Assembly: GCA_019310535.1 (NCBI GenBank)
Contig: JAFDED010000019.1
Coordinates: forward strand, 1 to 64,000
Length of the DNA stretch: 64,000 bases
DNA from: Deltaproteobacteria bacterium
Lineage (GTDB): Bacteria > Desulfobacterota > JAFDED01
Direction of reading: 5' to 3'
Position 1 is the first letter of the stretch, and every line of letters begins with the position of its first letter. Shown piece after piece: positions 3,447 to 38,809 of the stretch. The position numbers and the translations under genes were made by a program. The notes below the pieces were generated by a model. The model worked only from the letters and a program-made list of their open reading frames with translations, was not told where the DNA came from and did no database searches.

Positions 3447-3929
3447 ATGAAAATTCTGGAAGAAGATCTCCAGTTGTTGAAATGCATTTCCATGCTGGCC
3501 AAGATAAGCGATGAACACTTGAAACTCCTGGCCTATGTATCCCAGCGGATAATATTCGAGAAGGAAGAGACCATATTACGCGAGGGGGAGCAAGGCGACG
3601 ACGCTTACATCATCTGCCAGGGGACGGCCCGCGTATTTAAAAATATCAGGGGCGAATCTGTTCTGATCAATACCCTCGCCGAGGGAGATGTGTTTGGAGA
3701 ACTTGCCATTATCAGCAATTGCCCCCGCAGCGCCACCGTTGTGGCGGAGACGGACATGGTGGTCCTCCGCATCGAAAAAGACGTTTTCCTGAACCTGATG
3801 GCACAGTATCCCCGAGAGGTGGGTTTGCAGGTTATGCACGCCATCGTTAACCGCCTGTTTCAGGCCGAAAAGAAGCTTTACGGGGGCAACCAGTCTTTTG
3901 GAGGAAACGAATATGAGGGTGAACGATAA
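3447..3929 (+). CDS. cyclic nucleotide-binding (Crp/Fnr-type effector domain) protein
   Basis: A 160-residue stand-alone cNMP-binding domain without a DNA-binding helix-turn-helix. The phosphate-binding cassette is visible at about 82-98 (GELAIIS then NCPRSATV), with the canonical Glu (85) and Arg (94) that contact the ribose and phosphate of cAMP/cGMP. It lies between the ABC exporter and a histidine kinase, and its 3' end overlaps the kinase start by 17 bp, implying an operon. Its likely job is to couple cyclic nucleotide levels to the exporter or to the kinase cascade by protein contact. This is inferred from position; binding itself is well supported by the motif. The nucleotide could be made by the cyclase at 6157-7284. 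Confidence 0.8.
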   Translation: MKILEEDLQLLKCISMLAKISDEHLKLLAYVSQRIIFEKEETILREGEQGDDAYIICQGTARVFKNIRGESVLINTLAEGDVFGELAIISNCPRSATVVAETDMVVLRIEKDVFLNLMAQYPREVGLQVMHAIVNRLFQAEKKLYGGNQSFGGNEYEGER

Positions 3930-5769
3930 ATCAATAACGTCCCGGACGTCGGGTGAGGATGCTATGGGAAGCCCTCCTTTGAAAAACCAACAGAATGACC
4001 CCCCCACATCCCCATTCCCCTCGGCCTGTGCCTTGCCCTCTCCAGATGCCAGTCCCAATGTCTGTGCCTTGCCCTCTCCAGATGCCAGAGGCAAAACCAT
4101 AAAGCTGCAAACTTACATGATCTATCTTATTTTGCCCATGATCTTGATTCCTGTCCTGCTGATGGCGTTCATGGGTATCTGGCTCTCTTATCGCAGCGCT
4201 CAGAGCGTCAATCAGTGGTTCCATAATTTCCGGGAGAGCGAACTGATTATGATCGCAGAGCGCCCCGTTTTTTTCCGGTACGCCAAGGCCATGGAAGAAA
4301 TGCGCATGAGTTCAGCTCATATGTACAGGAGTTATTTTCACCAGTGGCTCAAGCAATTCATTGATCGAAGCAACAAGTACGAAACCGTGTACCTGTGGAT
4401 ACAGGTGGTGAATTCGAAGGGCAGGGAAATCCTCAGGGTACTGGCGGATGTATCGAAATTACCGGAAAATATAAAAAATGAAGCCTTCCTCCACATACCG
4501 GAGGCCTCGGAGATCGTTGCCCGGACTAAAACCGCAAAGGATACTTTGCACTGGCATTTCGACCAGGGATCTATCCATATCCTTTCAGTCCCCATCTGGT
4601 TCGACCGGGACGAGAACGGCAACCTCTCCCCCGATGAGTACCTGGGAGCTCTGACCGCGGGGTTTCAATATCCCCGGTCTTACATTATGTACATCGTGAA
4701 GCGGAGCTTGATCTTCACGGGCTGCATCATTGCCTTGGCGCTGCTGGTTTCTTATATGACCGTGTACCGCAGATTTCGGCGCCTTGTTGAGCCCATCCGT
4801 CATCTGGCCACCATTTCCCGCAGATTCGCTACCGGAGATCTCTCCGCCCGGGCGGAAATCCATGTGAATGTCTCGGAGGTCCAGGACATGTGCGATGCCT
4901 TCAATTCCATGGCCTGCGATATTGAATGTATCCTGGAAGAGAGGAATCGATACGCCCAAGATTTATGCAAACTCAATGAAGACCTGGAGAAGAAAGTTCT
5001 GGAGCGCACCAGGGAACTCCGACGCCTTAATAAAGAGCTCCAGTCTGCTACCCGACATAAATCCGAATTCCTGGCCAATATGTCTCACGAACTGAGGACC
5101 CCCATGAATGCCATCCTGGGTTTCACGGAGCTCATCCAGGACGGCATTTACGGCCAGATCCCGCCCAAAATGACGGAGATCATCGAGAAGGTACAGCACA
5201 ACGGCACGCATTTATTGAACCTCATAAACGACGTGTTGGACCTGAGCAAGATCGAGGCGGGCCGCATCGAACTGAGCAAGACCGACTTCCGTGCCGCCGC
5301 CTGCATTGAGAGCGTGGTTTCCAATGCGACCTCTCTGGCAGCCCGGAAAGGGTTGAAAGTTAAAACAGAGATCCCGGATAGATTGCCCATTGGTTATGGC
5401 GACGAAAAGCGTGTCAATCAGATCCTCTGGAATCTCGTAAGCAACGCCATCAAATTCACCCAGGAGGGAGAGGTGACCGTCGGCGTCAAGGGGGAAGATG
5501 GTTGGCTGCATTTCTTTGTGGAGGACACGGGAATGGGGATTCCCGCCGATCGCATTGGGGAACTCTTCCAGGAGTTCCGGCAGTTGGACAGCAGCAACAC
5601 CAAGAAGTTTGGTGGGACGGGGCTGGGGCTCTCTATATCAAAGAAGCTGGCCGAGATGCACGGAGGAAGGATATGGGTGGAAAGCGAGGAGGGCAAGGGC
5701 TCCGTTTTTCACTTCTCCCTCCCGTTCAAAGACCAGGCCGATCCCGGCTCCTCGGCCTCAGAAGAATAA
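3913..5769 (+). CDS. membrane sensor histidine kinase with EF-hand-like loop in the sensor domain
   Basis: About 618 residues. After a low-complexity N-terminus come a first membrane segment (about 68-93), an extracytoplasmic domain (about 94-265), a second membrane segment (about 266-286), a HAMP linker and coiled coil, a HisKA domain with phospho-acceptor H392 in SHELRTP, and a HATPase domain with N, G1 (DTGMGIP) and G2 (GGTGLGLSI) boxes. In the sensor domain residues 231-242 read DRDENGNLSPDE, matching the 12-residue calcium-binding EF-hand loop at every ligand position. The N-terminal cytoplasmic tail contains a 12-residue tandem repeat encoded by two identical 27-bp units. The start at ATG 3913 is chosen over TTG 3898 because GGAGGAA at 3900-3906 precedes it. 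It probably phosphorylates the response regulators at 5790 and 6157. Confidence 0.87.
   Translation: MRVNDKSITSRTSGEDAMGSPPLKNQQNDPPTSPFPSACALPSPDASPNVCALPSPDARGKTIKLQTYMIYLILPMILIPVLLMAFMGIWLSYRSAQSVNQWFHNFRESELIMIAERPVFFRYAKAMEEMRMSSAHMYRSYFHQWLKQFIDRSNKYETVYLWIQVVNSKGREILRVLADVSKLPENIKNEAFLHIPEASEIVARTKTAKDTLHWHFDQGSIHILSVPIWFDRDENGNLSPDEYLGALTAGFQYPRSYIMYIVKRSLIFTGCIIALALLVSYMTVYRRFRRLVEPIRHLATISRRFATGDLSARAEIHVNVSEVQDMCDAFNSMACDIECILEERNRYAQDLCKLNEDLEKKVLERTRELRRLNKELQSATRHKSEFLANMSHELRTPMNAILGFTELIQDGIYGQIPPKMTEIIEKVQHNGTHLLNLINDVLDLSKIEAGRIELSKTDFRAAACIESVVSNATSLAARKGLKVKTEIPDRLPIGYGDEKRVNQILWNLVSNAIKFTQEGEVTVGVKGEDGWLHFFVEDTGMGIPADRIGELFQEFRQLDSSNTKKFGGTGLGLSISKKLAEMHGGRIWVESEEGKGSVFHFSLPFKDQADPGSSASEE
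4026..4088 (+). repeat. in-frame direct repeat, 27 bp x 2, period 36 bp
   Basis: Bases 4026-4052 and 4062-4088 are identical over 27 positions and are separated by 9 bp. The period of 36 bp equals 12 codons, so the reading frame of the kinase is preserved and CALPSPDA appears twice in the N-terminal tail. Such repeats can change copy number by slippage. Confidence 0.9.
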
Positions 5770-5789: not shown

Positions 5790-6188
5790 ATGATGGCGCC
5801 CACCATTTTACATGTAGAGGATAATGCAGATAATCGGCAGATAGTGCGGGACCTCTTTTCCGCCCGGGGATACCGGATCATCGAAGCAGAGGACGGGGTT
5901 TCGGGAGTCGAATTGGCCTCACGGATGGCCAACGAACTGGATATCATCTTGATGGACATCCAGTTGCCGAAAATGAGCGGTTACGACGCAGTCCGGGCCA
6001 TTAAAAGCAATCGAAAACTTCGTGATATTCCCATCATAGTTGTAACTTCTTATGCCCTCTCGGGGGACGATCGGAAGGCTTTCGAGGCAGGAGCTGATGA
6101 TTATATAGCCAAGCCTTATAAGCCTAGTGAACTGCGAATTAAAGTGGAGACTTGGATTGCCGGGCGAAAGGGCAATACAAAGGAATAA
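5790..6188 (+). CDS. single-domain response regulator (CheY-like)
   Basis: A 132-residue receiver domain with no output domain. Acidic pocket E10-D11, phospho-acceptor D56 in LMDIQLP, the conserved Thr in VVTSYA and Lys in AKPYKP are all present. The start at ATG 5790 follows GGAGG at 5781-5785; the frame is open further upstream but that part is out of frame with the kinase and not homologous to receivers. It lies 20 bp after the histidine kinase and overlaps the next gene. It is probably phosphorylated by that kinase and passes the signal on by protein contact or as a phosphorelay intermediate. Confidence 0.88.
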   Translation: MMAPTILHVEDNADNRQIVRDLFSARGYRIIEAEDGVSGVELASRMANELDIILMDIQLPKMSGYDAVRAIKSNRKLRDIPIIVVTSYALSGDDRKAFEAGADDYIAKPYKPSELRIKVETWIAGRKGNTKE

Positions 6189-7284
6189 GCGGCGAATTCT
6201 TGTGGTGGATGACATTCACGAGAATGTTGAAATCCTCCAGGCCCGTCTTGAGGCTCAAGGTTACGAGGTAGTGACAGCCTATGACGGGGAGGAGGCCCTG
6301 AGAAAGGTGTCGGAGACCAGCCCCGATCTGGTGCTTCTTGATGTGATGATGCCAAAGATGGACGGATTCCAGGTCTGCCGGGCCATCAAGTCATCGCCGC
6401 AGACGGAGATGCTCCCGGTGATTATGGTCACCGCACGGACAGATACCAGCGATATCGTCAAAGGGTTCGAGGTGGGGGCCGATGATTATCTCACCAAACC
6501 ATATAACCAGCAAGAGCTCCAGGCACGGGTTCGGTCCATGTTGCGCATTCGCGATGCCCATCTCCAGTTGGAAGAGTTCAATCGCTCCCTTGAAGAGCGG
6601 GTCCGGCAACAGGTCAAAGAGATCGAACGTATGGGGCGGCTGCGGCGATATTTTTCCCCCCAGTTGGCCCAGAGACTGCTGGACGACACCAGGAAGGACA
6701 TCATGCAAAGCCACCGCCGGGAGATCACGGTGGTTTTTCTTGACCTCCGTGGCTTCACCTCATTTTCCGATTCCGCAGAACCGGAAGAAATTATGGAGGT
6801 GCTCCGGGAATTCCACAGGACAGTGGGTCCCATCATTTTCCAGTACCATGGGACCCTGGAGCGGTTTGCCGGGGATGGGATCATGGTCTTTCTGGGCGAT
6901 CCGGACCCCATGGACGAACACCCCAAACAGGCGGGTCGTATGGCACTTGAGCTGCAACATGCCATGGAATCCATAAGCCGGCGCTGGGAGAAAATGGGCT
7001 ATCATCTGCGGCTGGGAGTGGGCATGGCGACCGGATATGCCACCCTGGGAGGTATAGGTTTCGAGGGACGCATGGATTATGCTGCTATCGGAACCGTTAC
7101 AAACCTGGCGGCCCGCCTTTGTAAGAGGGCTGCCGGGGGACAGATTCTGGCCCCTCAAAAAACGGTCGCTCGTTTCGATGATCAATTAAAGGTGCGCTAT
7201 ATTGAGGACATGGAGATTGAAGGCCTTTCACGGTCCGTGCCCGTCTATGAGGTGCTGGGGTTAAACAATGATGATAACGGGTAG
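6157..7284 (+). CDS. response regulator with class III adenylate/guanylate cyclase output domain
   Basis: About 375 residues: a receiver domain (phospho-acceptor D62 in LLDVMMP), a charged coiled-coil linker (about 135-175), and a class III nucleotidyl cyclase domain (about 188-370). Both metal aspartates are present (D196 in FLDLRGFT, D240 in GDG), as are the transition-state residues N316 and R320 in TNLAARL, so the enzyme should be active. Whether it makes cAMP or cGMP cannot be settled by eye. The start is uncertain: TTG 6157 has a GTGGAG-like site upstream, and GTG 6127 is the alternative; both overlap the previous gene, indicating translational coupling. The neighbouring cNMP-binding protein (3447-3929) is an obvious candidate receptor for its product. 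Confidence 0.85.
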   Translation: MPGERAIQRNKRRILVVDDIHENVEILQARLEAQGYEVVTAYDGEEALRKVSETSPDLVLLDVMMPKMDGFQVCRAIKSSPQTEMLPVIMVTARTDTSDIVKGFEVGADDYLTKPYNQQELQARVRSMLRIRDAHLQLEEFNRSLEERVRQQVKEIERMGRLRRYFSPQLAQRLLDDTRKDIMQSHRREITVVFLDLRGFTSFSDSAEPEEIMEVLREFHRTVGPIIFQYHGTLERFAGDGIMVFLGDPDPMDEHPKQAGRMALELQHAMESISRRWEKMGYHLRLGVGMATGYATLGGIGFEGRMDYAAIGTVTNLAARLCKRAAGGQILAPQKTVARFDDQLKVRYIEDMEIEGLSRSVPVYEVLGLNNDDNG

Positions 7285-7317: not shown

Positions 7318-7416
7318 ATGAAAAGTTCAAGAATCAGCAATATCCTTTTCCGGAATTCCCAGGTCAGGTATGCCCACGGGACAGCGGGAGCAAATGGGTA
7401 TGGTCCTCATGGCTGA
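7318..7416 (+). CDS. possible 32-residue small protein with strong Shine-Dalgarno, antisense to the radical SAM 3' end
   Basis: ATG 7318 is preceded by AGGAGGG (7305-7311) at ideal spacing, 33 bp after the cyclase stop. The peptide starts MKSSRISNILF and ends in a Gly/His/Tyr-rich tail (YAHGTAG, NGYGPHG). Apart from its first three codons it lies antisense to the last codons of the radical SAM gene, so the tail composition could simply mirror Pro/Cys-rich codons there. The ribosome binding site lies outside that gene, which is why I list it. No homology is recognised and a translated product is unproven. Confidence 0.3.
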   Translation: MKSSRISNILFRNSQVRYAHGTAGANGYGPHG

Positions 7417-8268
7417 TCGCACCCTCCTCCGAAACGCCTTACGCTCGGGCGTGGCCCACCAAGACCGGAATCGCTCATTTGAAACAGTGCCCAGCCGGTA
7501 CTCTCCATTGAAATCATAGCAGCAAGGCACAATTGTCCCATCGGCGATGACAACCAGGCAATCCCACGGCCATGTGCAATGCGGAAGCACATACTCAGCG
7601 CGGATATTTGTTGCATCCCCGTCTGTGTAACGCTGGAGCCGGAAGTCTCCAGGGATCATGGAGCGTCCCTCCGAGGAGCCTTTCTCTCCCGAGAGCAATG
7701 CATTGAAGGTCTTGAACTTGATTTGGTCGGCGCCGATGCGCTTGGCAAATACCTCGAACTCGCTGATCCGCTCCTCATTGTGCCGCATCACAATGTATTG
7801 GGCCTGGATAATGGGCCGGCTCATTCCGAGCCGTTCCCTGATTTCTCGCAACCGGGAGATGTTTTGAATAAGCGTATTGAAATCGCCCCCTCGACGGTAT
7901 TGTTCGTATGTTGCTTGGTCTAAACCGTCCAGAGAGACCTTCAGTTTGTCCAGCCCTGCCCGCACCAGCCCCGCGGCTATAGCGGGGGACAGGAGCAGAC
8001 CGTTGGTATGCATCTTGATCTGCTTAATACCTTTTTCTTTGGCGTAAGCGATGCATTCGACAATCTGGGGATGGAGGAGGGGCTCTCCGAAGTTGTGGAC
8101 CAACAGTTCCTGAACAAACGTGCCGGCTTGATCAATGATGTGGCGGAAAAGCTCAAAGGGCATGGGCGGATACATCCGGGCGCTCCCGTTACCCACAGGG
8201 CACACCGGACACCGTAAATTGCAGGCTCTGGAGAGTTCGATCATGGCCTTGGCCGGGTACTGTATCAT
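7327..8268 (-). CDS. radical SAM / SPASM-domain enzyme
   Basis: A 313-residue enzyme. The radical SAM cluster motif CNLRCPVC gives C16, C20 and C23, and the GEPLLHP and MHTNG segments typical of the TIM barrel follow. The C-terminal region has cysteines at 231, 237, 249, 250, 293 and 296, consistent with a SPASM/twitch auxiliary Fe-S cluster domain. Such enzymes modify ribosomal peptides (thioether, C-C crosslinks) or mature enzyme cofactors. The gene is divergent from a PqqD-like gene, a frequent partner of peptide-modifying radical SAM enzymes. A GGGAG site precedes ATG 8268. A good sigma-70 promoter is visible at 8386-8415. The substrate peptide is not identified. Confidence 0.88.
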   Translation of the reverse strand: MIQYPAKAMIELSRACNLRCPVCPVGNGSARMYPPMPFELFRHIIDQAGTFVQELLVHNFGEPLLHPQIVECIAYAKEKGIKQIKMHTNGLLLSPAIAAGLVRAGLDKLKVSLDGLDQATYEQYRRGGDFNTLIQNISRLREIRERLGMSRPIIQAQYIVMRHNEERISEFEVFAKRIGADQIKFKTFNALLSGEKGSSEGRSMIPGDFRLQRYTDGDATNIRAEYVLPHCTWPWDCLVVIADGTIVPCCYDFNGEYRLGTVSNERFRSWWATPERKAFRRRVRSAMRTIPICSRCPVGIPDLGIPEKDIADS

Positions 8269-8614: not shown

Positions 8615-9058
8615 ATGCCAGCTTTGAGCAGAAAAAATACCTCTACATCCAATGAAAACATAATCCTGTCGGAAGTTACGAGCGATTCGTTCACTCGGGA
8701 GCAGGCTCTCAATGCCGTGCCCGTCAGGAACGAAGCGGTCAATACCCAATACGGAGATAATGAGGAGGCGATTCTTACGTTCTACGTGCAGCAAAGGGGA
8801 TGGCTTGTTTCAATGCTGCGTTTTCTCGGGAAACCGGATACCATTTCCATGCAGAAAAGGCTCCAGTTAGACGAGATCGGTACCTTGATCTGGCAGCTCT
8901 CTGACGGGAAAACCAGCGTACTCGATATGATTGATCTTCTTTGCGATCGCTACCGTCTCCACAGAAAAGAAGCGGAGAAATCGTTGCTTGCATTTTTACG
9001 AATGCTTGGTGAACGCGGGTTGATAGCAATGGAGCTGAAATCTTTACACGGTTCTTAA
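8615..9058 (+). CDS. PqqD-like (RiPP recognition element) protein
   Basis: 147 residues. The C-terminal part (about 83-139), beginning RLQLDEIGTLIWQL and followed by a helical segment, matches the PqqD winged-helix fold that binds leader peptides of ribosomally made peptides or recruits substrates to radical SAM enzymes. The first 50 residues are unrelated and polar. Residues about 50-80 match the linker seen in PqqD proteins encoded beside FtsX permeases. It starts the + strand operon, with the FtsX permease only 3 bp downstream. A role in handing a peptide to the exporter encoded next, or to the divergent radical SAM enzyme, is inference. Confidence 0.75.
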   Translation: MPALSRKNTSTSNENIILSEVTSDSFTREQALNAVPVRNEAVNTQYGDNEEAILTFYVQQRGWLVSMLRFLGKPDTISMQKRLQLDEIGTLIWQLSDGKTSVLDMIDLLCDRYRLHRKEAEKSLLAFLRMLGERGLIAMELKSLHGS

Positions 9059-9061
9059 AAA

Positions 9062-9748
9062 ATGCCCGAAACCTCCCCACTGACCAGACAGCAGATTCGA
9101 ACTCGTATGCGACTCCCGTGGAGTATGGTGCTGAAAATCGCCATGGCCTCATTTCAGCATCGACGAATGCGCACCCTCATCACCATTCTCTCCCTCAGCC
9201 TGGCCATTGCGTTCCTTTCGTACACCCTGGTTTGCGCTGAGCTGGCCCGCTGCCTTCGGGAAACCGGCAACAAGCAGGTCATCTCAAAACTGGATCGAAT
9301 GGGATACGAAGTCGAGTCCGCCCCCGAAGGTCAGCCAGTTCTTCTGTCTAAAAAGATATGGATTGTGGCGCTCTCCCTGCTGGTCTGTGTTGTCGGCATC
9401 ATCAACACTCAACTCATGTCTGTCATGGAACAGTACCATGTGATAGGCACCATGAAGTGCCTGGGCGCATTGGATTCTATAATTTTCCGCATTCTCACCA
9501 TGGAGGCATTGATTCAGGGTCTGATGGGGTCAGTCAGTGGAGTCATCGTCGGTGTAGCGCTGGCTTTTGTTAACTTCTCCGTACCTTTCGGTTCATACCT
9601 CTATCAAAATTTAGACATACTATCTCTGACAATGTGGTTTAGTGTGTCAGTGCTGGTTGGTTGTGCGCTTTCGTTCATCGGGGTTGCCTATCCGGCGATT
9701 ATCGTGGCTCGTATGCAGCCCACGGAAGCCTTGCGTGTTGACCGCTGA
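9062..9748 (+). CDS. short FtsX/MacB-type permease
   Basis: 228 residues with four membrane segments (about 38-58, 97-120, 143-168, 187-215) in the FtsX arrangement, ending with the family's PTEALRVDR-like coupling tail. The extracytoplasmic region between helices 1 and 2 is only about 38 residues, against around 200 in MacB or LolC, so the periplasmic substrate-handling domain is missing and this is a minimal subunit. It probably pairs with the ATPase at 9790 and the giant permease at 10588 as an asymmetric complex like LolCDE. It starts 3 bp after the PqqD-like gene. Confidence 0.8.
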   Translation: MPETSPLTRQQIRTRMRLPWSMVLKIAMASFQHRRMRTLITILSLSLAIAFLSYTLVCAELARCLRETGNKQVISKLDRMGYEVESAPEGQPVLLSKKIWIVALSLLVCVVGIINTQLMSVMEQYHVIGTMKCLGALDSIIFRILTMEALIQGLMGSVSGVIVGVALAFVNFSVPFGSYLYQNLDILSLTMWFSVSVLVGCALSFIGVAYPAIIVARMQPTEALRVDR

Positions 9749-9789
9749 CCCCATTCCACCCTAACGTGCATATGAAAGGTAGTCCATGT

Positions 9790-10545
9790 ATGGAAACGGA
9801 TCACATTGTCATCCGCGTGAGTAATCTGGCCAAGGAGTATATCATGGGCAAGACGGTTCTCCATGCCCTTCGGGGGATCGACCTTGTTGTAAGGAGTGGA
9901 GAATACATTTCTATTATGGGGCCATCCGGTTCGGGCAAGTCCACCCTTTTTAATATGATCGGGGGGCTTGATCGGCCCACAAGAGGTCAGGTTTTTATTG
10001 ACGAGGTGGACATTTCACAACTGGACGCGTATGAACTGGCTTGGCTTCGATGCCGTAAGGTCGGGTACATCTTTCAAACCTTTAACCTGATTCCCGTGAT
10101 GACGGCTCTTGAAAACGTCACCCTCCCAATGATCTTCGGCGGTGCCCAGTTGCAAGAGGCCAACTCCAGGGGGATAGAACTGCTTGAACGGGTAGGGTTG
10201 GGTGATCGGATCCACCATAAACCCTCTGAACTCTCTGGAGGCCAGCAGCAGAGGGTGGCCATAGCGCGGGCTCTGGCCAACTCACCATCTATCGTCCTGG
10301 CCGACGAACCGACCGGAAACTTAGACCTCTCAACAGGAGAAGAAATCATCAACCTCCTCAAGGCGATGAGCATGGACACAGGGGTCACCATTGTTTCCGC
10401 AACCCATGACATGAAAATGCTGGCTGTTTCTGATCGGGTGATCTGGATCCGTGATGGGAAAATCGAGAATATAGAGAAACGCGAGAAACTCAGCATCTCC
10501 GTGGGACAAGTTCAGCCCAGGCCTGATTGGCCTGGTCATGCATGA
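9790..10545 (+). CDS. ABC transporter ATPase, LolD/MacB type
   Basis: 251 residues from ATG 9790, with Walker A GPSGSGKST at 44-52, a Q-loop in IFQTFNL, signature LSGGQQQR, Walker B IVLADEPTGNLD and an H-loop histidine in SATHD. The DEPTGNLD sequence and the overall length are typical of ATPases that drive FtsX-fold mechanotransmission complexes (LolCDE, MacAB, FtsEX) rather than importers. GTG 9766 and ATG 9772 are possible earlier starts, but only ATG 9790 has a plausible AAAGGTAG site. It sits between its two likely permease partners. Confidence 0.88.
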   Translation: METDHIVIRVSNLAKEYIMGKTVLHALRGIDLVVRSGEYISIMGPSGSGKSTLFNMIGGLDRPTRGQVFIDEVDISQLDAYELAWLRCRKVGYIFQTFNLIPVMTALENVTLPMIFGGAQLQEANSRGIELLERVGLGDRIHHKPSELSGGQQQRVAIARALANSPSIVLADEPTGNLDLSTGEEIINLLKAMSMDTGVTIVSATHDMKMLAVSDRVIWIRDGKIENIEKREKLSISVGQVQPRPDWPGHA

Positions 10546-10587: not shown

Positions 10588-13500
10588 GTGAAAGCAGCTA
10601 GAGTTATGACCGCTTGCCCGCGAATTATGTGGGCAGCACCAATGGCCTTTGGAGCCTTGCTGCTTACAACCATTTTCTTTTGTAATTCCAGGCCCGCCGT
10701 TGCCTCTTATGAGGGATCGATAGAAAGGCCTCCCATCGCGTCGATTCCGGACCGGGTGACCGGCACCCAGGGGGCGGATAAAGCCGCCCGGCTCATTGGC
10801 GAGGAGTTTGAGGCAGCCGGTCTTCAGGATGTGGACGTCCATGAATACATCCCTCCTATTCCTGTGGACGAGGGCAGCGAGATAAGCCTTCGTGGCGATG
10901 GGCAATCTGTTACCTTATTTCCGCTCTTTCCCAACCTTGTAACCACTTCCACCACGCCTCCCGGTGGGGTTGAAGGGCCGTTGATTTACGCCGGGGAAGG
11001 GCGGCTGGCTGATTTTAATGGAAAAGGAGTGGAGGGGACTGTTGTCCTCATAGACGCCGGCGCAGGGTCCAATTGGACAAATGTACCCATGCTGGGTGGG
11101 AAGGGCGCCATATTTATCGGAGACCCGGGCAGCCGCCTCCGCCTTGAAGACGCCATCGATCCCACGCCGCTCACTTTTCCGCGATTCTGGATGGATGCAA
11201 AACAGGCTCAACAGTTGTATCCGCAAGCTTTCGACTCCCGATCCGAGACTGTGCCGCTCCGTGTTCAAATTCGCTCCAAGGTGACCTGGCGAAACAGGAT
11301 CGGCCGCAATGTTTACGGCCTTTTACCCGGGGTTAATCCCCACCATGAAAATGAACTGGTAATCGTAGATGCTTTTTATGATGCAACGCCCCTGGTGCTG
11401 GGCCGCACGCCGGGGGCCGATGAAGCCGCCAGTGCGGAAGCGCTGCTGAGCATAATGCAGCATCTCGTGAAAAAACCTCCCGGTCGATCAGTCCTCTTTT
11501 TGGCCACCTCCGGCCATGCCCAGGCCCTCCACGGCATGCGTGAATTTGTCTGGGCTGTCATCACTAAGCCCAAGCAATTCCATAATGATAAAAAGCGTTT
11601 GGTCAAAAAGATCCAAGAGATGAAGAATCTGCTCAAAGCTATCCGGTCCGGTAAAATCAGCTTTAATCAACAAGATGCATTGGGACAGTCATACCGGACT
11701 TACATGGGCCAAGCCATCAAAAATCGTGCGGATGACCTATCCAACCAGATCAGACACCTTCGCATGGTTTCAGGGAATGCACCCAACGATGAGCGGCTTC
11801 GCTCTCTCCTGGAACAGCATCAGATACTGCGGCGGATCAGCTTGGTGGGGGGCTCGCGACCGATATCTGATGAATCACGTGCGGCGCTTTCACGGATCGA
11901 GAAAGAAGTGGAGGTCAGCCTTGAATCCATGCTTGAAGAAGCCCGCCTTCAGTTGAAAGCACTTGAGTCCACCCTGAGATTGAAGGAAAAGCTGAAATCT
12001 TACAAAATAAAGGCTGTTCTTTCCCTGCATCTCTCCTCCGGCAGCAGGGGGCTGGGAGCTTTTTCACACGGATGGTTCTATAACAGGCGGGACACCGCGG
12101 CGGACCGGGAAGCCTTTACCAGCCTGTCAAATTTGCTGGATAAACTCATTCAGAAGATCGATGGTAAACAGGCAGCCCTGGTGAACGCCTTGCAGCCTGC
12201 GGCCCGCCGCAATTGGAGGAGCTATCTGGGCGGAGAACCGTTTTTTAACAGTGAGGTGGCTGTATTGGGTGGATTGCTGGGGGTCACCTTCGCGACCACC
12301 GATGATGTGCGGCTTCGATGGGGAACGCCTTCAGACGGAATTTCCAGCGTGAGATACGATTACCTGGAACCTCAGGTCAGATTGCTTAAGGTCATCCTTC
12401 CCCGCATTATCGACGCGGACTCCAGGGTCTTTAAATCAAAACCCCGCAAGGCCTTTTCCGTGTTGGAAGGGACCGCAAAATTTATCCGGGCGGGGGAACT
12501 TTTCCCTGATCGGCCAGGAAGGGGTGCAATTGTCACAGCCTCCCACGGAAAACCAATCATGAAGACCGCAGTGGACTGGGAAGGGGAGTTTAAGATAAAA
12601 GGCGTGGCCAGTAAAAAAGTGGTCTATGAGAAGGTCCTTATAGAACTGTTTGGCCTCAATGAGGAGGACGGACGGATCCACTGGGCCGTCATCAAGGAAA
12701 GGACCGGAAAAAGCAACTACCGGGTGAAGGTCAAAAAACGCAGGCAGAGGATTTCCTTGATCCTCTTTCCAACGCGGGCGTCCACATCTTTTTCCGCCCT
12801 GAGCCCTCGGGATTTCAGCTATCTGCGCAAAATGCACCTCCTGGATGCCCGACGTGAATCCCGTCCTCTGCGGAATTGGTATAGCCGCGTGGATACTCTT
12901 CGATCAACGTATATTACCACCTATCTGGAGGAAGGAACCCCTTACAAGGTCATCCTTTCGGACAATTTCCTGTCAAAAAAGCTGCTCCTTCTTAATGGGA
13001 GTCCAGAGCATCCTGAGGGAGATGGTTTCATAATTGATAAGTTTCCCACCATACCGTTCACTCCGTACCAGGTGGCCTCAGACATGTGGAAACTGGGGCA
13101 GTTGCGGCTTAGGAATCTGGAGGAGAAAGGGATCAAGAACCCGCGGGTGGAGAAATTGCACACTGAGGCCGGCAGGAAGCTGGAACGATCCAGATATCTC
13201 CTGGCCCAGAGGATTTACAGCGGTTTTATAGAGGCAGCGCGATCCGCCTGGGCTTTTGAGATCCAGGTTTACAACGAATTGATGAGAATTCAGCAGGATG
13301 TTCTTGTGGGTGTCCTGTTTTATATAGCTTTATTTTTTCCTTTCGCATACTGCATCGAACGGCTTCTTTTTGGCTTTTCAGATATTAGGAAGCGCATAAT
13401 CGCATTTGTGTGCATCCTTTTGGCCACCATCTGGATTGTTAAGAGCGTGCACCCCGCTTTTGAAATGACATACAGCCCGGCGATGGTGATCCTCGCCTTT

Positions 13501-15423
13501 TTTGTAATGGCTCTGTCATTGATTGTATCGCTTATTATCTTCATTCGTATGGAAGACGAGGTAGCCGATCTGCATCGGCAGGCCCTGCACATAAAAGTGT
13601 CAGAAGTGAAAAAAAGCAAAGCATTTGCAGCGGCTTTTTCACTGGGCGTCTCCAACCTCAAACGGCACAAGGCGCGTACCGCTCTGACTTGTCTTACACT
13701 GGTGATCCTCACCTTTACGATTATGTCGTTCACTAACATTAAGACACTCAAGAAGAACTGGAAAGTAGAGGTCTCTTCTGATGCTCCATACAAGGGGATG
13801 CTGGTGAGGTCATTCCTGTGGAACCCCTTTCCTGAGAAAAGCTTCCAGGACATTGGAGACGCTCTGGGTGAGAAAGGGCGCGTGTTCGCCCGGGCCTGGT
13901 TGGGCCAGGGGAATTTAAACTGGATTGTGCGCGTGAATATCCACAATCCGCGCAATGGCGGGACTTTCACCGCCGAGGGGCTTCTGGGCATGGAGGCGGC
14001 CGATGCAGCGGCCTCTCATCTGGAAAAAATCGTCCAAAAAGGTCAGTGGTTTGGGGGTGACACACCCCATTCCCTATTGTTGCCTCGGACCGCTGCCGAA
14101 AAGCTCGGAATAGATGCCAATAATTTGCCGGGTGCAACGGTATCCATATTGGGCACGGAATTTCGTGTGGCCGGGATTTTTGACGAGTCGGAACTGGATG
14201 CCTGGTTCGACCTCGATGGTGAACCCTTGACACCCGTTGTTTATCCTGTGCAGCGGAAGGAAGAACTGACCCCGGTTGAAGTGGAGGCCATGCAGGAAGG
14301 AGAAGACATCGGCTATGTCCGGGGACGATACCAGCATGTTCCCGGATCCAAGACGGTGATAATGCCCTTCTCCACCCTGCTGGGATTGGGAGGACAAATC
14401 CGGTCAGTTGTTTTTCATCCCCACAGATCCGACATGCTGGATGCAATGAGCGATTATTTGTTGGATAGGTTCTCTCTGCCTTTATTCATCGGCAGCGAGC
14501 AAGGATCGCAACTTGTGTATGCGTCCGATTCCATGCGATACCTGGGTGCGCCAAACGTTCTGATCCCGCTTCTTATCTCGGCTTTGATCGTTTTAAACAC
14601 CATGATCGGAGCTGTTTTCGGCCGCAGGCGTGAGATAGCGGTATATACGTCCGTTGGCCTGGCGCCCAATCATATTGGCTTTTTATTCGTCACCGAAGCG
14701 TTGGCGTTGGGCATAATCAGCGTTACCGCGGGATATTTGCTGGCCCAGGGGATAGCGGGTTTTCTGACGAACATGGGGATGCTTGGGGGTATTACATTGA
14801 ATTATTCGTCCAAGGCGGGAGTGGCTTCCATGGTGCTTGTTTTGTCCACAGCAGTCCTTTCAACCCTGTACCCGGCCAGGATGGCTTCGCAAATTGCCAT
14901 ACAGGATGTCAGCGCCCGTACTGAACTTCCTCCGCCCACAGGAGACCGTATCCATATCCTGATGCCCTTTATCATGCACCAGTGGGAGTGGGTTGGGCTG
15001 GCTGGATATCTGGAAGACTTTTTTCTGTCCCGCAAGGATCTGTCTCATGGCGTGTTCTCGGTCGAAGATGCACGCTTCGTTTCCCTGTGTCAGTTTCCGT
15101 GTGGAACGGGCTGTAACCGCGAAGCCTGCTTCCAGTTGCTCGGTCGGGTCTGGCTGGCTCCTTTCGATTTCGGGGTCAAACAAAATGTAACGGTCGTCCT
15201 TTGTCCCTCGAAAACCGAATCGGGCTTTCTTGAGGTCAAGATCGATCTTGAGCGTTTGTCCGGTGAGAAACAAACCTGGATTCGCACAAATCAAGTTTTC
15301 TTATACATGATTCGCAAGCATCTCCTGATCTGGAGGTCCGTGGATGATGAGGCAAAACGGGAATACGCAAACCGGTTGACGGCCGCCCTGGCTGATGCAA
15401 AAAGATTCGGGGTCAAATGTTAA
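10588..15423 (+). CDS. giant fusion: degenerate M28 peptidase-like domain + FtsX permease
   Basis: 1611 residues. An N-terminal signal/anchor (about 14-40) precedes an M28-like peptidase region with a PA-like insert (about 130-185) and core (about 252-320). The zinc-site motifs are altered: the usual H-x-D is AFYDA (F263 where His is expected), D278 of GADEA is kept, and the catalytic Glu pair is SGHAQ (H310-A311-Q312). It is therefore probably a pseudopeptidase that binds peptide. A coiled-coil-rich region (about 330-480) and a long extracytoplasmic region follow, then membrane helices near 905-985, a second FtsX module with one helix near 1035 and three at about 1325-1432, and a soluble C-terminal domain (about 1450-1611). 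M28-FtsX fusions occur in related operons; the family function is not established. It ends in a terminator-like inverted repeat. Confidence 0.75.
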   Translation: MKAARVMTACPRIMWAAPMAFGALLLTTIFFCNSRPAVASYEGSIERPPIASIPDRVTGTQGADKAARLIGEEFEAAGLQDVDVHEYIPPIPVDEGSEISLRGDGQSVTLFPLFPNLVTTSTTPPGGVEGPLIYAGEGRLADFNGKGVEGTVVLIDAGAGSNWTNVPMLGGKGAIFIGDPGSRLRLEDAIDPTPLTFPRFWMDAKQAQQLYPQAFDSRSETVPLRVQIRSKVTWRNRIGRNVYGLLPGVNPHHENELVIVDAFYDATPLVLGRTPGADEAASAEALLSIMQHLVKKPPGRSVLFLATSGHAQALHGMREFVWAVITKPKQFHNDKKRLVKKIQEMKNLLKAIRSGKISFNQQDALGQSYRTYMGQAIKNRADDLSNQIRHLRMVSGNAPNDERLRSLLEQHQILRRISLVGGSRPISDESRAALSRIEKEVEVSLESMLEEARLQLKALESTLRLKEKLKSYKIKAVLSLHLSSGSRGLGAFSHGWFYNRRDTAADREAFTSLSNLLDKLIQKIDGKQAALVNALQPAARRNWRSYLGGEPFFNSEVAVLGGLLGVTFATTDDVRLRWGTPSDGISSVRYDYLEPQVRLLKVILPRIIDADSRVFKSKPRKAFSVLEGTAKFIRAGELFPDRPGRGAIVTASHGKPIMKTAVDWEGEFKIKGVASKKVVYEKVLIELFGLNEEDGRIHWAVIKERTGKSNYRVKVKKRRQRISLILFPTRASTSFSALSPRDFSYLRKMHLLDARRESRPLRNWYSRVDTLRSTYITTYLEEGTPYKVILSDNFLSKKLLLLNGSPEHPEGDGFIIDKFPTIPFTPYQVASDMWKLGQLRLRNLEEKGIKNPRVEKLHTEAGRKLERSRYLLAQRIYSGFIEAARSAWAFEIQVYNELMRIQQDVLVGVLFYIALFFPFAYCIERLLFGFSDIRKRIIAFVCILLATIWIVKSVHPAFEMTYSPAMVILAFFVMALSLIVSLIIFIRMEDEVADLHRQALHIKVSEVKKSKAFAAAFSLGVSNLKRHKARTALTCLTLVILTFTIMSFTNIKTLKKNWKVEVSSDAPYKGMLVRSFLWNPFPEKSFQDIGDALGEKGRVFARAWLGQGNLNWIVRVNIHNPRNGGTFTAEGLLGMEAADAAASHLEKIVQKGQWFGGDTPHSLLLPRTAAEKLGIDANNLPGATVSILGTEFRVAGIFDESELDAWFDLDGEPLTPVVYPVQRKEELTPVEVEAMQEGEDIGYVRGRYQHVPGSKTVIMPFSTLLGLGGQIRSVVFHPHRSDMLDAMSDYLLDRFSLPLFIGSEQGSQLVYASDSMRYLGAPNVLIPLLISALIVLNTMIGAVFGRRREIAVYTSVGLAPNHIGFLFVTEALALGIISVTAGYLLAQGIAGFLTNMGMLGGITLNYSSKAGVASMVLVLSTAVLSTLYPARMASQIAIQDVSARTELPPPTGDRIHILMPFIMHQWEWVGLAGYLEDFFLSRKDLSHGVFSVEDARFVSLCQFPCGTGCNREACFQLLGRVWLAPFDFGVKQNVTVVLCPSKTESGFLEVKIDLERLSGEKQTWIRTNQVFLYMIRKHLLIWRSVDDEAKREYANRLTAALADAKRFGVKC

Positions 15424-15551: not shown

Positions 15552-17525
15552 ATGGAAAAAGTGACAATGCGCTCTGTGGTACTGGGCGCGGCAATGGTGG
15601 TGGTGCTGTGCTGGTTTACACCTGAGAACAATATCCGACTGGAAAACACCCCGCTGGGGGGAGGGTACTTTCCCCTGGCACCTTTTGTGCTTTTGCTTTT
15701 TCTTGCAGTGATTTACAACCCCCTGTTCGGCCGTTTGCTACCGCGGTTGCAGCTGAATTCCGCTGAGTTGTTGATTATATGGATCATGACTACTCTGGCT
15801 TCCGGAATCCCTTACCGGGGGCTGCTACGGAACTTTTATCTCAATATTACCACACCTTTTTATTATGCGACGGGGTCCAATATGTGGGCCGAAAAGATTC
15901 AGCCCTTTGTGCCCACAAGTCTGGTCCCTCGAGATCCACAAACGATCCAGGGACTTTACAGAGGCCTTGAGATGGATCCCTCCACCGGCCTGCTGCTGCG
16001 CCTCCAGGCCATTCCCTGGAGTCAATGGCTGGTCCCTCTTGCCGTGTGGAGCTTGTTTGTGCTGTTGTGCTACGGCATGTTCCTATGCATGGTCGCTCTC
16101 CTGAGCCAACAGTGGGTGGTGAATGAAAACCTCAACTTTCCATTGCTCCAGATACCGATGGATGTGGCCGATTCCAGCCGGGAAGGAAAGCTGCTCGGTT
16201 TTCTGACCAACCGGTTTTTGCTTGCAGGTGTGGCCATACCCGTATTTCTCCATCTTATTAATGGACTTTACGTTTACTTTCCCGTTATTCCACAGATTCC
16301 CACCCTGGTGCTGATGAAGCCGTATTTCCCCAGAACCGGACTGCTGGAAGGCTTTAGCACATTGCGGGTCTATTTTTTTCCCGCGTTCATTGGATTTGCG
16401 TTTCTGACACCGCGCCAATTGTCCCTCTCCTTTTGGTTTTTTTACCTGCTCGGCAAGTTATTGCAGGGGCTGCTGCCTTTGGTGGGTCTGGAGGCGCCGC
16501 CGGCTGTCATGGGTCCCACCTTTGACCCGGAACTGGAGCGCCCCGAGGCTTTCCAGACAATAGGCGCATTAATAGTTACTTTTGGATTTCTGCTTTACCT
16601 TGCGCGTGATCACCTGAGGCGGGTGGGAGCGTCCATTCTGGGGCGAAACAATGTTGAATCACAGGTCGTTTCGCTGATATCACCCCGGTTGTCGGCTCTG
16701 GGTCTTTTGATCTGCTTCAGTGGGCTGGTCGCCTGGTGCCTGAAGTTCGGGATGTCGGTCTGGATCGCGGTCATGCTACTGGCCCTCTTTTTCGTCATAC
16801 ATCTGGTAGTGGCGCGGGTGATCTGCCAGGGCGGGCTTGCCCTGTTTACCCTGACCGTGGCCCCCCTGGATGGTATCCTGGGTTTCCTGGGCTCCAAAAT
16901 ATTTGCGGCCAGGGAATTTGTGCTCACGGTAATGATCCAGAAAATCCTGTTCATGGATTTTCGCGAAGCCCTGATGCCTTCCATGATGCACGCCGCCAAA
17001 CTGGCGGAACGGATACGCGGACGCCGCATCCTCTTGCTGGGAGTAACCCTGAGCATCGCACTTGGCCTGGTGGTGTCTTACGCCTCCGTGCTTACTCTTT
17101 TTTACACCCACGGTATCAACCAGTTACGGGACCAGGAGGCTGTACAAAGCACGCTGTTGGTGTATGACACCATGGATCGAGTCGTGTCTGATCCGCAGCC
17201 TCCCAGGAAATGGCCATTTGTCTTTGGCCTGTCCGGGGCCTGCGCGGCTCTGGTAAATATACTTTTTTATCACCGATTTTATTGGTGGCCGTTGCATCCC
17301 CTGGGATACTTGACTATGTATAGTTGGGCCATGAAGAGATTGTGGTTCAGCTATTTGCTGGGGTGGTTCTTTAACACGCTTACCCTCCGATACGGGGGAG
17401 CCATGTTTTTTAGAAAAGTTCGCTTCTTTTTTATCGGACTGATAATCGGAGATTTCCTGATGGGCGGGATATGGGGGTTGATCAGTATGTGGACTCGTGT
17501 ACAGTATATGGTTCTGCCGGGGTAG
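15552..17525 (+). CDS. polytopic membrane protein, OPT-like (DUF6785-type), first of a pair
   Basis: 657 residues with roughly twelve to fourteen hydrophobic segments and few charged loops. The N-terminal block with LNSAELLIIWIMTTLASGIPYRG is characteristic of a family (DUF6785/DUF6784) distantly related to oligopeptide (OPT) transporters. The start ATG 15552 follows a GAGAGAGAAGGA purine tract. The neighbour that starts 6 bp later has the same length and class, so the two probably form a heterodimer. With the peptide-linked genes upstream, a peptide or modified-peptide transport role is plausible but unproven. Confidence 0.72.
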   Translation: MEKVTMRSVVLGAAMVVVLCWFTPENNIRLENTPLGGGYFPLAPFVLLLFLAVIYNPLFGRLLPRLQLNSAELLIIWIMTTLASGIPYRGLLRNFYLNITTPFYYATGSNMWAEKIQPFVPTSLVPRDPQTIQGLYRGLEMDPSTGLLLRLQAIPWSQWLVPLAVWSLFVLLCYGMFLCMVALLSQQWVVNENLNFPLLQIPMDVADSSREGKLLGFLTNRFLLAGVAIPVFLHLINGLYVYFPVIPQIPTLVLMKPYFPRTGLLEGFSTLRVYFFPAFIGFAFLTPRQLSLSFWFFYLLGKLLQGLLPLVGLEAPPAVMGPTFDPELERPEAFQTIGALIVTFGFLLYLARDHLRRVGASILGRNNVESQVVSLISPRLSALGLLICFSGLVAWCLKFGMSVWIAVMLLALFFVIHLVVARVICQGGLALFTLTVAPLDGILGFLGSKIFAAREFVLTVMIQKILFMDFREALMPSMMHAAKLAERIRGRRILLLGVTLSIALGLVVSYASVLTLFYTHGINQLRDQEAVQSTLLVYDTMDRVVSDPQPPRKWPFVFGLSGACAALVNILFYHRFYWWPLHPLGYLTMYSWAMKRLWFSYLLGWFFNTLTLRYGGAMFFRKVRFFFIGLIIGDFLMGGIWGLISMWTRVQYMVLPG

Positions 17526-17531
17526 GGGACG

Positions 17532-19505
17532 ATGCAGGAAGACCGAGAACTCCAAGAATACCGCGACTTGATGGTTCCTCCGGAGAAGTTTGAAGAGGGA
17601 TTCGACCTCAAGACGGTGATCGGCGCGATCTTGATCGGGTTTTTGATGATGCCCGGCTCCATGTACCTCAGTCTTGTCATCGGGCAGGGCATGGGACCGG
17701 CGGCACGGTGGGTCACCATCATTCTGGTTGCAGAGGTGGCCAAGCGGTCATACACCCACCTGAAACAACAGGAAATTTTTTTGCTGTATTACATGGCGGG
17801 TGCTGCCATGGCCTCCCCTTTTCAGGGACTTTTATGGAACCAGTATCTGGTGCAATCAGACGCAGCAAGGATGCTGGGGCTCACCGAGCTGATTCCCACA
17901 TGGGTGGCGCCCCAGTTGGGCTCAGAGTCGCTTCTGAAGCGCACCTTCTTTCACCGGGACTGGTTGATTCCCATTCTGCTGATAGGCGGGGTACAGCTCA
18001 TCCAGCGAGTGGATCACTTCGGCCTGGGGTACATCATGTACAGGCTGACCTCGGACGTGGAGCGGCTTCCTTTCCCCATGGCGCCCGTGGCGGCACTGGG
18101 CACCATTGCCCTGGCAGAGTCGGGTGAAGAGCAGAATGGGAAAAAGCAGTGGAAGTGGCGAGTATTCAGCATCGGCGGTGCCATTGGGCTGGGATTCGGC
18201 GCGGTGTACGTGTTGCTGCCGGCTATGACTGGTGTCCTGCTGAATCAACCCATCCGCCTCATACCCATGCCGTGGCTTGAACTCACGCAAAGCACGGAAT
18301 CATTCCTGCCCGCCGTGGCCACCGGCATACAATTGGATATGGGACTGATTTTCATTGGAATGGTGCTGCCATTCTGGGCTGTGATAGGGAGCTTCCTGGG
18401 CGTGGTCATCACTTTCATCCTCAACCCGGTCCTGCACCATCACGGGTTTCTGGTGCGGTGGCACCCGGGCATGGGGACCGTAGACACAATGTTCGCCAAC
18501 AATTTCGATTTTTACATGAGCTTCGGCATCGGGCTGGGCCTGGCCATCGCCCTGATCGGGTTTTATCATCTTTTCCGGGGAGGGGCTCGAGGCCCCGGCG
18601 GGCAAAGGAGGAATCGAAACCTGCGGGCGCTTTTTCATCCCCCTCCGGGCCGCGGGGATTTCAATTTCTGGATCGCTGTTGGAATTTATGTGTGTGCTAC
18701 GCTGGCTTACACCCTGCTCTCCGTGATCCTGGTCCCTGATTTTCCGTGGATATTCTTTATTGGGTACGGCTTTATTTACACTCCCATCATCTCATACGTT
18801 TCAGCCCGTATGGAAGGTATCGCGGGGCAGTTTGTCAGTCTGCCCCTGATGCGGGAAGCAAGCTTCATAGCGGGGTCTCAGCTCTTCGGCTACCAGGGCA
18901 TAGGAATCTGGTATGCGCCCATTCCCATCCACAATTATGGTAAAGCCACCCTGGAATTTCGGAAAATCGAACTGACGGGCACCAACCTTCGCGGTATCAT
19001 CAAATCCGAACTGGTGATCTTCCCCATTGTATTCGTCGGCAGTTTGCTCTTCTCACAGTATATCTGGCGCCTGGCTCCATTGCCCTCCAACATGTATCCT
19101 TATGCCCAGCAAATGTGGCACCTGGAGGCCATGAACCTCCTGCTGATACAGAGCTCGACCCTTGGTGGCGAGAGCGCTTTTTATGAGGCGCTTAAGCTTG
19201 TCCCGGCTGTCTCCGGCCTCGTGTTCGGCGTTTTAACGTACACGGTGCTCAGCATACTGGGCCTGCCGATACTTCTTATATACGGGGTGACTCGGGGACT
19301 TGGCCAGAGCATGCCCCACGGAGCAATCCTTGAACTGACAGGTGCTCTGCTGGGACGCTTTTACTTCCTTAAGCGTTTCGGGACATCCTGGAGGCAATAT
19401 GCTCCGGTACTCCTGGCAGGTTTTTCCTGCGGGATGGGGCTGATCGGCATGTTTGCCATGGGCTGGACATTGATACTGAGCTCCCTGGAAAGGCTCCCTT
19501 ATTGA
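17532..19505 (+). CDS. polytopic membrane protein, OPT-like (DUF6784-type), second of a pair
   Basis: 657 residues, polytopic. The N-terminus MQEDRELQEYRDLMVPPEKFEEGF is cytoplasmic and is followed by helices including the MPGSMYLSLVIGQGMGPAARW block typical of peptide/OPT-like transporter halves. It starts 6 bp after the preceding membrane protein and its stop overlaps the start of the next gene, so all three are co-translated. Sequence similarity to the partner is low, arguing for an old heterodimeric pair rather than recent duplication. Substrate unknown. Confidence 0.7.
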   Translation: MQEDRELQEYRDLMVPPEKFEEGFDLKTVIGAILIGFLMMPGSMYLSLVIGQGMGPAARWVTIILVAEVAKRSYTHLKQQEIFLLYYMAGAAMASPFQGLLWNQYLVQSDAARMLGLTELIPTWVAPQLGSESLLKRTFFHRDWLIPILLIGGVQLIQRVDHFGLGYIMYRLTSDVERLPFPMAPVAALGTIALAESGEEQNGKKQWKWRVFSIGGAIGLGFGAVYVLLPAMTGVLLNQPIRLIPMPWLELTQSTESFLPAVATGIQLDMGLIFIGMVLPFWAVIGSFLGVVITFILNPVLHHHGFLVRWHPGMGTVDTMFANNFDFYMSFGIGLGLAIALIGFYHLFRGGARGPGGQRRNRNLRALFHPPPGRGDFNFWIAVGIYVCATLAYTLLSVILVPDFPWIFFIGYGFIYTPIISYVSARMEGIAGQFVSLPLMREASFIAGSQLFGYQGIGIWYAPIPIHNYGKATLEFRKIELTGTNLRGIIKSELVIFPIVFVGSLLFSQYIWRLAPLPSNMYPYAQQMWHLEAMNLLLIQSSTLGGESAFYEALKLVPAVSGLVFGVLTYTVLSILGLPILLIYGVTRGLGQSMPHGAILELTGALLGRFYFLKRFGTSWRQYAPVLLAGFSCGMGLIGMFAMGWTLILSSLERLPY

Positions 19506-20449
19506 TAAGGAATATTTCACCGCACTTTCCGCCGCTGAGCGCCGGTGAACGCTGGTTTGCCTGGGAAGGCATGACCATGGTTGTCCCCAGGGGTTGGAAC
19601 CCCGCTGTCCTGCAAAAGGACTACCTCAGACTCGAAGACGCCCGGCGGCCAACCCTGGAGCTGCGCTGGAGGTTTTCGGCGAGGAAGGCATCAATACAGG
19701 AGGTAGCTCGTGCTTACGTCTCCCGGCTTGAGGAGGGCCTTGGAGGGCGGCCGGTTGCCGGCTTCGAGGAGGTGGATCTAGCCCCGGTTACAGATAATTA
19801 CGAGGTGGCACCGTTCTCCGTGGAGGCCGGGGAGATGATTTTCCGGGGGGCTGCCATCCTCTGCCCGCGCTGCGGGCGAATTGTTTTCCTCCAGGCGGGG
19901 ATGCCTCGCACAGAGGGCACAATCTCCCTCCCCGTCCGGATCATCTCTTCCTTTCGAGACTTCCATTCATCGGATTGGGTTCCTTGGACTCTTTTCGACA
20001 TAGGGGCGGATGTCCCAGGAGACTTTCGCCTGCATTCGCACAGCTTCCAGCCGGGTTACTTCCGCATGACCTTCCGGGAGGGCTCCCGGTGGATGACGCT
20101 CCATCGATGGGCACCGGCCGACGTCATTCTCCGCAGGACAAGCCTGGAAGAGTGGGCAGCCGCGCAATACAGAAAAGAGATCAAAAGGCGCGGGAGAACC
20201 CTGGTGCAGCGGGTTTTTGCCGGTTTCCCGGCGGTGGAGGTGATCCCGGGGCAGGGCGGGACGCTCATTCGGCGGCTTGGAAGAACCTTGCTCAGCGCAG
20301 GTCGATTTCGGGCACTCCTCTGGCACAACACAGAGGCCAACAGGGTATTCGGGGTGGAAACGGAAGGGCGAGGCTCAGCTATGAATCCGTTGCTTTACGA
20401 GGTGGCAGGGCGGTTCAAAGCTTTACATGAGCATGAGCGGCAGAAATAA
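19502..20449 (+). CDS. uncharacterised cytoplasmic protein with zinc-ribbon-like CxxC
   Basis: 315 residues from a TTG start that overlaps the preceding stop by 4 nt (ATTGA). No signal peptide or membrane helix. One CPRCGR knuckle lies near residue 121, giving a single CxxC rather than a full zinc ribbon. The first 30 residues (ERWFAWEGMTMVVPRGWNP) suggest a beta-sandwich or lipocalin-like opening, and a similar Trp-rich block recurs near 190. I do not recognise a family. Its translational coupling to the two OPT-like proteins suggests that it works with them. Confidence 0.65.
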   Translation: MIRNISPHFPPLSAGERWFAWEGMTMVVPRGWNPAVLQKDYLRLEDARRPTLELRWRFSARKASIQEVARAYVSRLEEGLGGRPVAGFEEVDLAPVTDNYEVAPFSVEAGEMIFRGAAILCPRCGRIVFLQAGMPRTEGTISLPVRIISSFRDFHSSDWVPWTLFDIGADVPGDFRLHSHSFQPGYFRMTFREGSRWMTLHRWAPADVILRRTSLEEWAAAQYRKEIKRRGRTLVQRVFAGFPAVEVIPGQGGTLIRRLGRTLLSAGRFRALLWHNTEANRVFGVETEGRGSAMNPLLYEVAGRFKALHEHERQK

Positions 20450-38677: not shown

Positions 38678-38809
38678 GCCGCCGCAACCATTGCATCCAA
38701 ATAAAACGAGGATGAGCAAGGGGACAACATCCACTGCACAGAATCTCTTACATCGTAAAGTTCAAGGAGAAATGACAGGGGTAAAAAGAACCAGATGGAG
38801 GACTATGTA

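Follow-up and report, generated by a model that had tools for sequence, protein, structure and literature searches.

The protein encoded at 10588-15423 (+ strand; P0001) of the window, the 64,000-nucleotide stretch of DNA that was analysed, raises the question of whether a peptidase fold built into a permease is still a peptidase and, if not, what it does there. The first-pass annotation had read this open reading frame as a 1611-residue fusion of a degenerate M28 peptidase with an FtsX permease, and an open reading frame check, profile comparisons and a structure model bore out both its extent and the fusion. The frame has a GTG start and an in-frame ATG at 10606, and it is intact in the window.

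Domain layout of the M28-FtsX protein

Pfam searches with the single protein detected the FtsX domain only, so the M28 assignment depends on the family profile and the structure model. Across 21 aligned members, Pfam detected FtsX in all 21, Peptidase_M28 in 18, MacB_PCD in seven, PA in three and Nicastrin in one. Compared with the PDB, the family profile matched the aminopeptidases 2ek8 (2.6e-16) and 6hc6 (5e-14), MacB (4e-10) and the transferrin receptor (1.7e-6). An AlphaFold model of residues 36-910 had a pLDDT of 89.6 and a pTM of 0.90. Foldseek comparison of this model with the PDB, the kind of structural check proposed in the first-pass annotation, confirmed the M28 fold: PA-M28 aminopeptidases were the best matches (6e-18 and weaker), followed by the transferrin receptor and GCPII. 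The TM-scores were modest (0.58 by target for 6hc6), a probable effect of the inserts and additional domains of this multi-domain protein. A chance motif was ruled out, as profile and fold agree and homologues share the architecture.

The domain boundaries given here are approximate and were drawn from profile alignment, the AlphaFold model and hydropathy; all lie on the + strand. An N-terminal signal peptide or signal anchor (10624-10695; residues 13-36, hydropathy peak 13-32) precedes the N-terminal M28 segment, DRVTGTQGADKAA (10735-10851; residues ~50-88), which aligned to 2ek8 and 6hc6 in the profile comparison. A PA (protease-associated/apical) domain (10852-11283; residues ~89-232), covered by the 2ek8, 6hc6 and transferrin receptor alignments and by Foldseek, is inserted in the M28 domain. 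The first half of the M28 core follows (11284-11568; residues ~233-327); it keeps D265 and D278 and has lost a His (F263) and a Glu pair (H310-A311). It is separated by a helical insert seen in the model (11569-11994; residues ~328-469; conservation 0.42, the lowest of the protein) from the second half (11995-12420; residues ~470-611), in which LHLSS has lost an Asp (H481) and WGTPSD a His (G579). The first-pass annotation had placed an M28 core at residues 50-330; the M28 identity held, but the PA domain sits within that span.

The model continues with a beta-rich periplasmic region (12421-13047; residues ~612-820), for which Pfam and PDB searches gave no match, and a helical stalk toward the membrane (13060-13287; residues ~825-900). 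Members of the GCPII/transferrin receptor group (M28B) have a C-terminal helical dimerisation domain; Pfam detected no TFR_dimer domain in the protein or its family, and the stretch that follows M28 is mostly beta structure in the model. Three extra transmembrane (TM) helices (13288-13566; residues ~901-993; conservation 0.77) stand ahead of FtsX. Much of what the first-pass annotation left unassigned between the core and the membrane domain is thus the helical insert and second M28 half, together with the stalk and the three helices; its beta-rich part does lack a known family. The permease comprises FtsX TM1 (13630-13749; residues ~1015-1054; conservation 0.85), a MacB-like periplasmic core or Porter region (13750-14535; residues ~1055-1316; the region of the seven MacB_PCD matches) and the FtsX C-terminal domain with TM2-4 (14536-14907; residues ~1317-1440; PF02687, 1.8e-11; conservation 0.81). 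In the profile alignment both FtsX halves of the family aligned to MacB (5lil), and the order of TM1, periplasmic core and TM2-4 is that of a type VII ABC permease. The protein ends in a presumably cytoplasmic domain of no known family (14908-15420; residues 1441-1611, containing WLAPFDFG), which also was without a match in Pfam and PDB searches.

Profile and model gave the same fold and domain order, M28-PA-M28, as in the PA-M28 aminopeptidases of Aneurinibacillus (AP, 2ek8) and Bacillus subtilis (YwaD/BSAP, 6hc6). The protein of the window differs from them in the replacement of the catalytic Glu and four of the five metal ligands, in its long helical insert and in its fusion to a permease.

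Family-wide loss of metal-ligand and catalytic residues

M28 peptidases hold their metal with five ligands, His-Asp-Glu-Asp-His, and have a catalytic Glu. In the profile alignment to 2ek8, the ligand His of SHHDS falls at F263 and the first Asp of NDDAS at D278. The two Glu residues of AEENGL, the catalytic one and the ligand, fall at H310 and A311, respectively, and the last ligand His at G579 (WGTPSD vs. YHTPND). The Asp of the NLD motif probably corresponds to H481, judging from the motif and the end of model strand 473-481. The bridging Asp, D278, is then the only ligand kept, and F263, A311, H481 and G579 take the places of the others. The residues singled out in the first-pass annotation (F263 in AFYDA, the PGADEAAS signature and H310-A311-Q312) were all present as described.

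The same positions were counted in 105 correctly framed homologues; the loci L078 and L084, which had been translated out of frame, were excluded. Position 263 was Phe in 84, Pro in nine, Ala in four, Ser in four and Arg in two, and was never His. Position 310 was His, Asn, Tyr, Arg, Gln, Lys, Ser or Gly and never Glu, while position 579 was never His, HTPxD having become GTPxD family-wide. Asp was found at position 481 in one sequence, and D278 was kept in 101 of the 105. The phylogenetic check suggested by the first-pass annotation therefore has a clear outcome, as the catalytic residues were lost in every member seen. Losses common to the whole family indicate an old pseudoenzyme rather than local decay. 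Decay into a pseudogene in this genome was excluded, as homologues carry the same losses and the reading frame is intact. Judged by its residues, the family has the M28 fold but is not an M28 peptidase: the five-ligand set and the catalytic Glu are absent throughout. Automatic annotation would label most members peptidases, since they match the Pfam model of M28, but these residues contradict that label.

An active hydrolase with a rebuilt metal site, in which D278, H310, H481 and H485 would have taken over from the canonical ligands, is very improbable. His was common at these positions, which lie at or near those of the active site (position 310 in 70, 481 in 83 and 485 in 86 of the 105 sequences), and D265 and D278 were nearly invariant. 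However, on a tree computed from the rest of the protein, without the M28 domain (and still including L078 and L084), H310, H481 and H485 changed 13, 7 and 8 times, respectively, without coupled loss; comparisons of independent pairs were all non-significant, with few informative pairs. Position 485 is Gly in the protein of the window itself, and whole clades have Gln, Tyr, Asn, Arg or Ser at 310 and 481. Alternative metal ligands, which the first-pass annotation had named as the finding that would overturn its reading, were thus set aside at the level of sequence: none of the candidate replacement His residues occurs throughout the family, and their changes showed no detectable coupling among the few informative pairs.

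Nicastrin is an M28-fold pseudoenzyme whose inactive fold serves binding in a membrane protein. The transferrin receptor is likewise a membrane protein in which an inactive M28 fold serves binding (PMC10794815). The transferrin receptor was matched by both the family profile and Foldseek, and nicastrin by the single Pfam match noted above. Both are eukaryotic and not coupled to an ABC transporter, unlike the protein described here, which was probably inactivated independently of them. In bacteria, the M28-FtsX family appears to put a dead M28 fold to new use in a comparable way, in this case probably with coupling to ATP.

Other M28-like proteins of the same genome show a different change. In a PA-M28 protein encoded at 38795-40585 (+ strand; P0002), the metal ligands appear to be retained and the catalytic-Glu position is His (WSGHETG); two more (L002 and L003) have WPGHSHG and WSCHETG. 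A His-for-Glu M28 subfamily thus seems common in this genome.

Candidate ABC partners, gene neighbours and distribution

Two genes immediately upstream encode candidate partners of the M28-FtsX protein. The first is a small FtsX subunit of 228 amino acids (9062-9748, + strand; P0003; PF02687, 2.4e-12). In its family (57 members, median 230 amino acids) TM1 and TM2 are separated by only ~40 residues, which leaves the M28-FtsX subunit to supply nearly all of the periplasmic mass; the Porter-like domain is present in the large subunit and near-absent in the small one. The second is an ABC ATPase of the LolD/MacB type (9766-10545, + strand; P0004) with intact Walker A, signature and Walker B motifs, which adjoins the M28-FtsX gene and is mostly 64-74% identical in related loci. 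Neither partner reached the equivalog cutoffs of the LolCDE lipoprotein exporter: the ATPase scored 235.9 against LolD (cutoff 307.75) and the small FtsX protein 37.2 against LolCE (cutoff 362.45). Gene order and family precedent suggest that the three proteins form one complex. The first-pass proposal of a pseudoenzyme built into an ABC complex thereby gains support as probable, since the ATPase and second FtsX subunit are adjacent and conserved.

MacB, LolCDE, YbbAP and FtsEX have the same FtsX fold, MacB-like periplasmic core and separate LolD-like ATPase. The system described here differs in that one subunit carries three additional TM helices and, at its N-terminus, a giant pseudo-M28 ectodomain, the other has a near-absent periplasmic domain, and the C-terminal domain belongs to no known family. 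The Porter domain has been described as a conserved feature of type VII systems (PMC7668044), from which the small FtsX subunit departs. YbbAP-TesA (PMC12646458) also pairs a type VII ABC transporter with a periplasmic module of hydrolase fold, but TesA is a separate, active esterase, whereas the pseudo-M28 module is covalently fused and predicted to be inactive.

Within the phylum, 26 homologues of the M28-FtsX protein were found (34-42% identical, most over ~1545 residues). Loci from named genomes were the best 80 of 237 candidate loci and came partly from the same genomes as the 26. All 80 were labelled as Desulfobacterota-type, as 'Deltaproteobacteria' or, once, as plain 'Proteobacteria'. 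The proposed heteromeric M28-FtsX ABC machine is, as far as seen, specific to Desulfobacterota. Cultured carriers include Desulfatibacillum alkenivorans and Solidesulfovibrio alcoholivorans.

Linkage was evaluated at the 41 loci with sufficient upstream and the 45 with sufficient downstream sequence. Upstream, the small FtsX and ATPase genes were present in 40 of 41 loci. A gene for a GT28-type glycosyltransferase stood upstream in 32 of the 41, and genes for a histidine phosphatase and a polysaccharide-deacetylase-like protein in 30 and 27, respectively. Downstream, 43 of 45 loci had both a DUF6785 gene and a homologue of P0006; in the window these encode a DUF6785/DUF6784 polytopic membrane protein identified by Pfam (15552-17525, + strand; P0005) and a 657-amino-acid polytopic membrane protein of no family (P0006; 17532-19505, + strand). 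Of 395 genomes from the phylum, 27 contained the M28-FtsX family, and P0006 occurred in exactly these 27; six additional genomes, outside the 27, matched the FtsX domain only. The deacetylase was found in 24 of the 27 M28-FtsX genomes and in one of the 368 others, and three genomes of one genus had the M28-FtsX gene without it. These linkages and co-occurrences are given as counts without p-values because shared ancestry inflates them. In the window the glycosyltransferase genes are not adjacent to the M28-FtsX gene; most of this genome's glycosyltransferase and deacetylase set is found on another contig (C68), in the order GT28, GT1, GT1, GT28, deacetylase, as elsewhere, and no phosphatase was found.

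P0006 was 65-75% identical across the phylum, with a mean column identity of 84% across Desulfobacterota. It is unusually conserved for a membrane protein of no assigned family and is without a convincing Pfam, NCBIfam or PDB match. Fold prediction gave no usable model (pLDDT 38.9), the alignment being too uniform, and a relationship to OPT transporters was rejected as insufficiently supported by a match of one of 26 members at 0.0035.

The next gene encodes a 315-amino-acid protein with no known domain (19502-20449, + strand; P0007), and PDB searches with the P0006, DUF6785 and P0007 families gave no useful match. In many Desulfobacterota the P0007 family adjoins a gene for a PqqD-like winged-helix protein; in the window the two are apart, and the PqqD-like gene (8615-9058, + strand; P0008; PF05402, 3.4e-12) lies upstream of the small FtsX gene. 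Each was found downstream in 28 of the 45 loci. A radical SAM-SPASM gene (7327-8268, - strand) adjoins the PqqD-like gene, and a second lies inside the glycosyltransferase cluster on C68 (L138:11563-12531).

Proposed function and alternatives

The reading we favour, by a modest balance of probability, is that the M28-FtsX protein is the large subunit of a type VII ABC machine and acts as an energised pseudo-M28 scaffold for an envelope glycan, a glycolipid or a partner protein. The targets of type VII systems are membrane lipids or partners in the periplasm (PMC7668044, PMC12646458). The LolD-like ATPase would drive the FtsX pair from the cytoplasm, one subunit being almost all membrane and the other bearing the Porter-like domain, the beta-rich stalk and the PA-M28 domain. 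By analogy with MacB, FtsEX and YbbAP-TesA, ATP binding may move the ectodomain by mechanotransmission. The pseudo-M28 cleft or the PA face would serve as the binding or scaffold module for a membrane-anchored glycan, glycolipid or partner protein, and the bound client, tied to the glycosyltransferase and deacetylase genes, could be passed on for envelope assembly together with both polytopic membrane proteins.

The conserved neighbours (glycosyltransferases, phosphatase, polysaccharide deacetylase and both polytopic membrane proteins) favour a glycan or glycolipid over peptides, although a PqqD-like fold of the peptide-chaperone kind also is linked. Judged by the linked enzymes, the cargo or client is most likely a glycan or glycolipid associated with the membrane, with about an even chance of this being so. 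More tentatively, and with less than an even chance, the genes may encode an undescribed Desulfobacterota system for assembly or export of an envelope glycan or glycolipid, in which a lopsided type VII ABC transporter carries the dead peptidase module and P0006 is a second core component. No account of the system turned up in the open-licence literature on DUF6785, on M28 with FtsX or on the Desulfobacterota gene cluster. The exact co-occurrence with P0006 marks a conserved, probably envelope-related role in sulfate reducers.

The PqqD-like and radical SAM genes near the window's copy speak against a glycan and suggest a peptide. A peptide or lipoprotein exporter or processor, like LolCDE or an exporter of RiPPs, whose pseudo-M28 cleft would bind peptides with the aid of a PqqD-like chaperone, nevertheless seems fairly unlikely. 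The peptide binding put forward in the first-pass annotation, and its suggestion that the protein may be the specificity module of the complex, are conjectural. The PqqD-like gene beside the small FtsX gene and its presence downstream at the other loci are consistent with it, as are the two radical SAM-SPASM genes, an ATPase nearest to LolD and the peptide substrates of M28 relatives. However, of 100 related loci only one had a detectable relative of the radical SAM gene at 7327-8268, sugars are what the most frequently linked enzymes act on, and the ATPase falls below the LolD equivalog cutoff. It is also unlikely that the complex is an FtsEX-like signalling device without transport, in which ATP cycling would move the ectodomain and thereby turn a separate enzyme of the periplasm or membrane on or off. 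FtsEX and YbbAP provide precedents for an FtsX fold with a periplasmic effector, and a dead enzyme domain would suit protein docking, as in the transferrin receptor, which is among the nearest structural neighbours. Yet the neighbours that are strictly conserved include no periplasmic enzyme, and the linked deacetylase of one locus (L058), inspected by eye, has no evident signal peptide.

A search of plasmid records led to nothing useful. Elsewhere in the window, a response regulator fused to an adenylate/guanylate cyclase catalytic domain (6127-7284, + strand) adjoins a histidine kinase gene (3898-5769).
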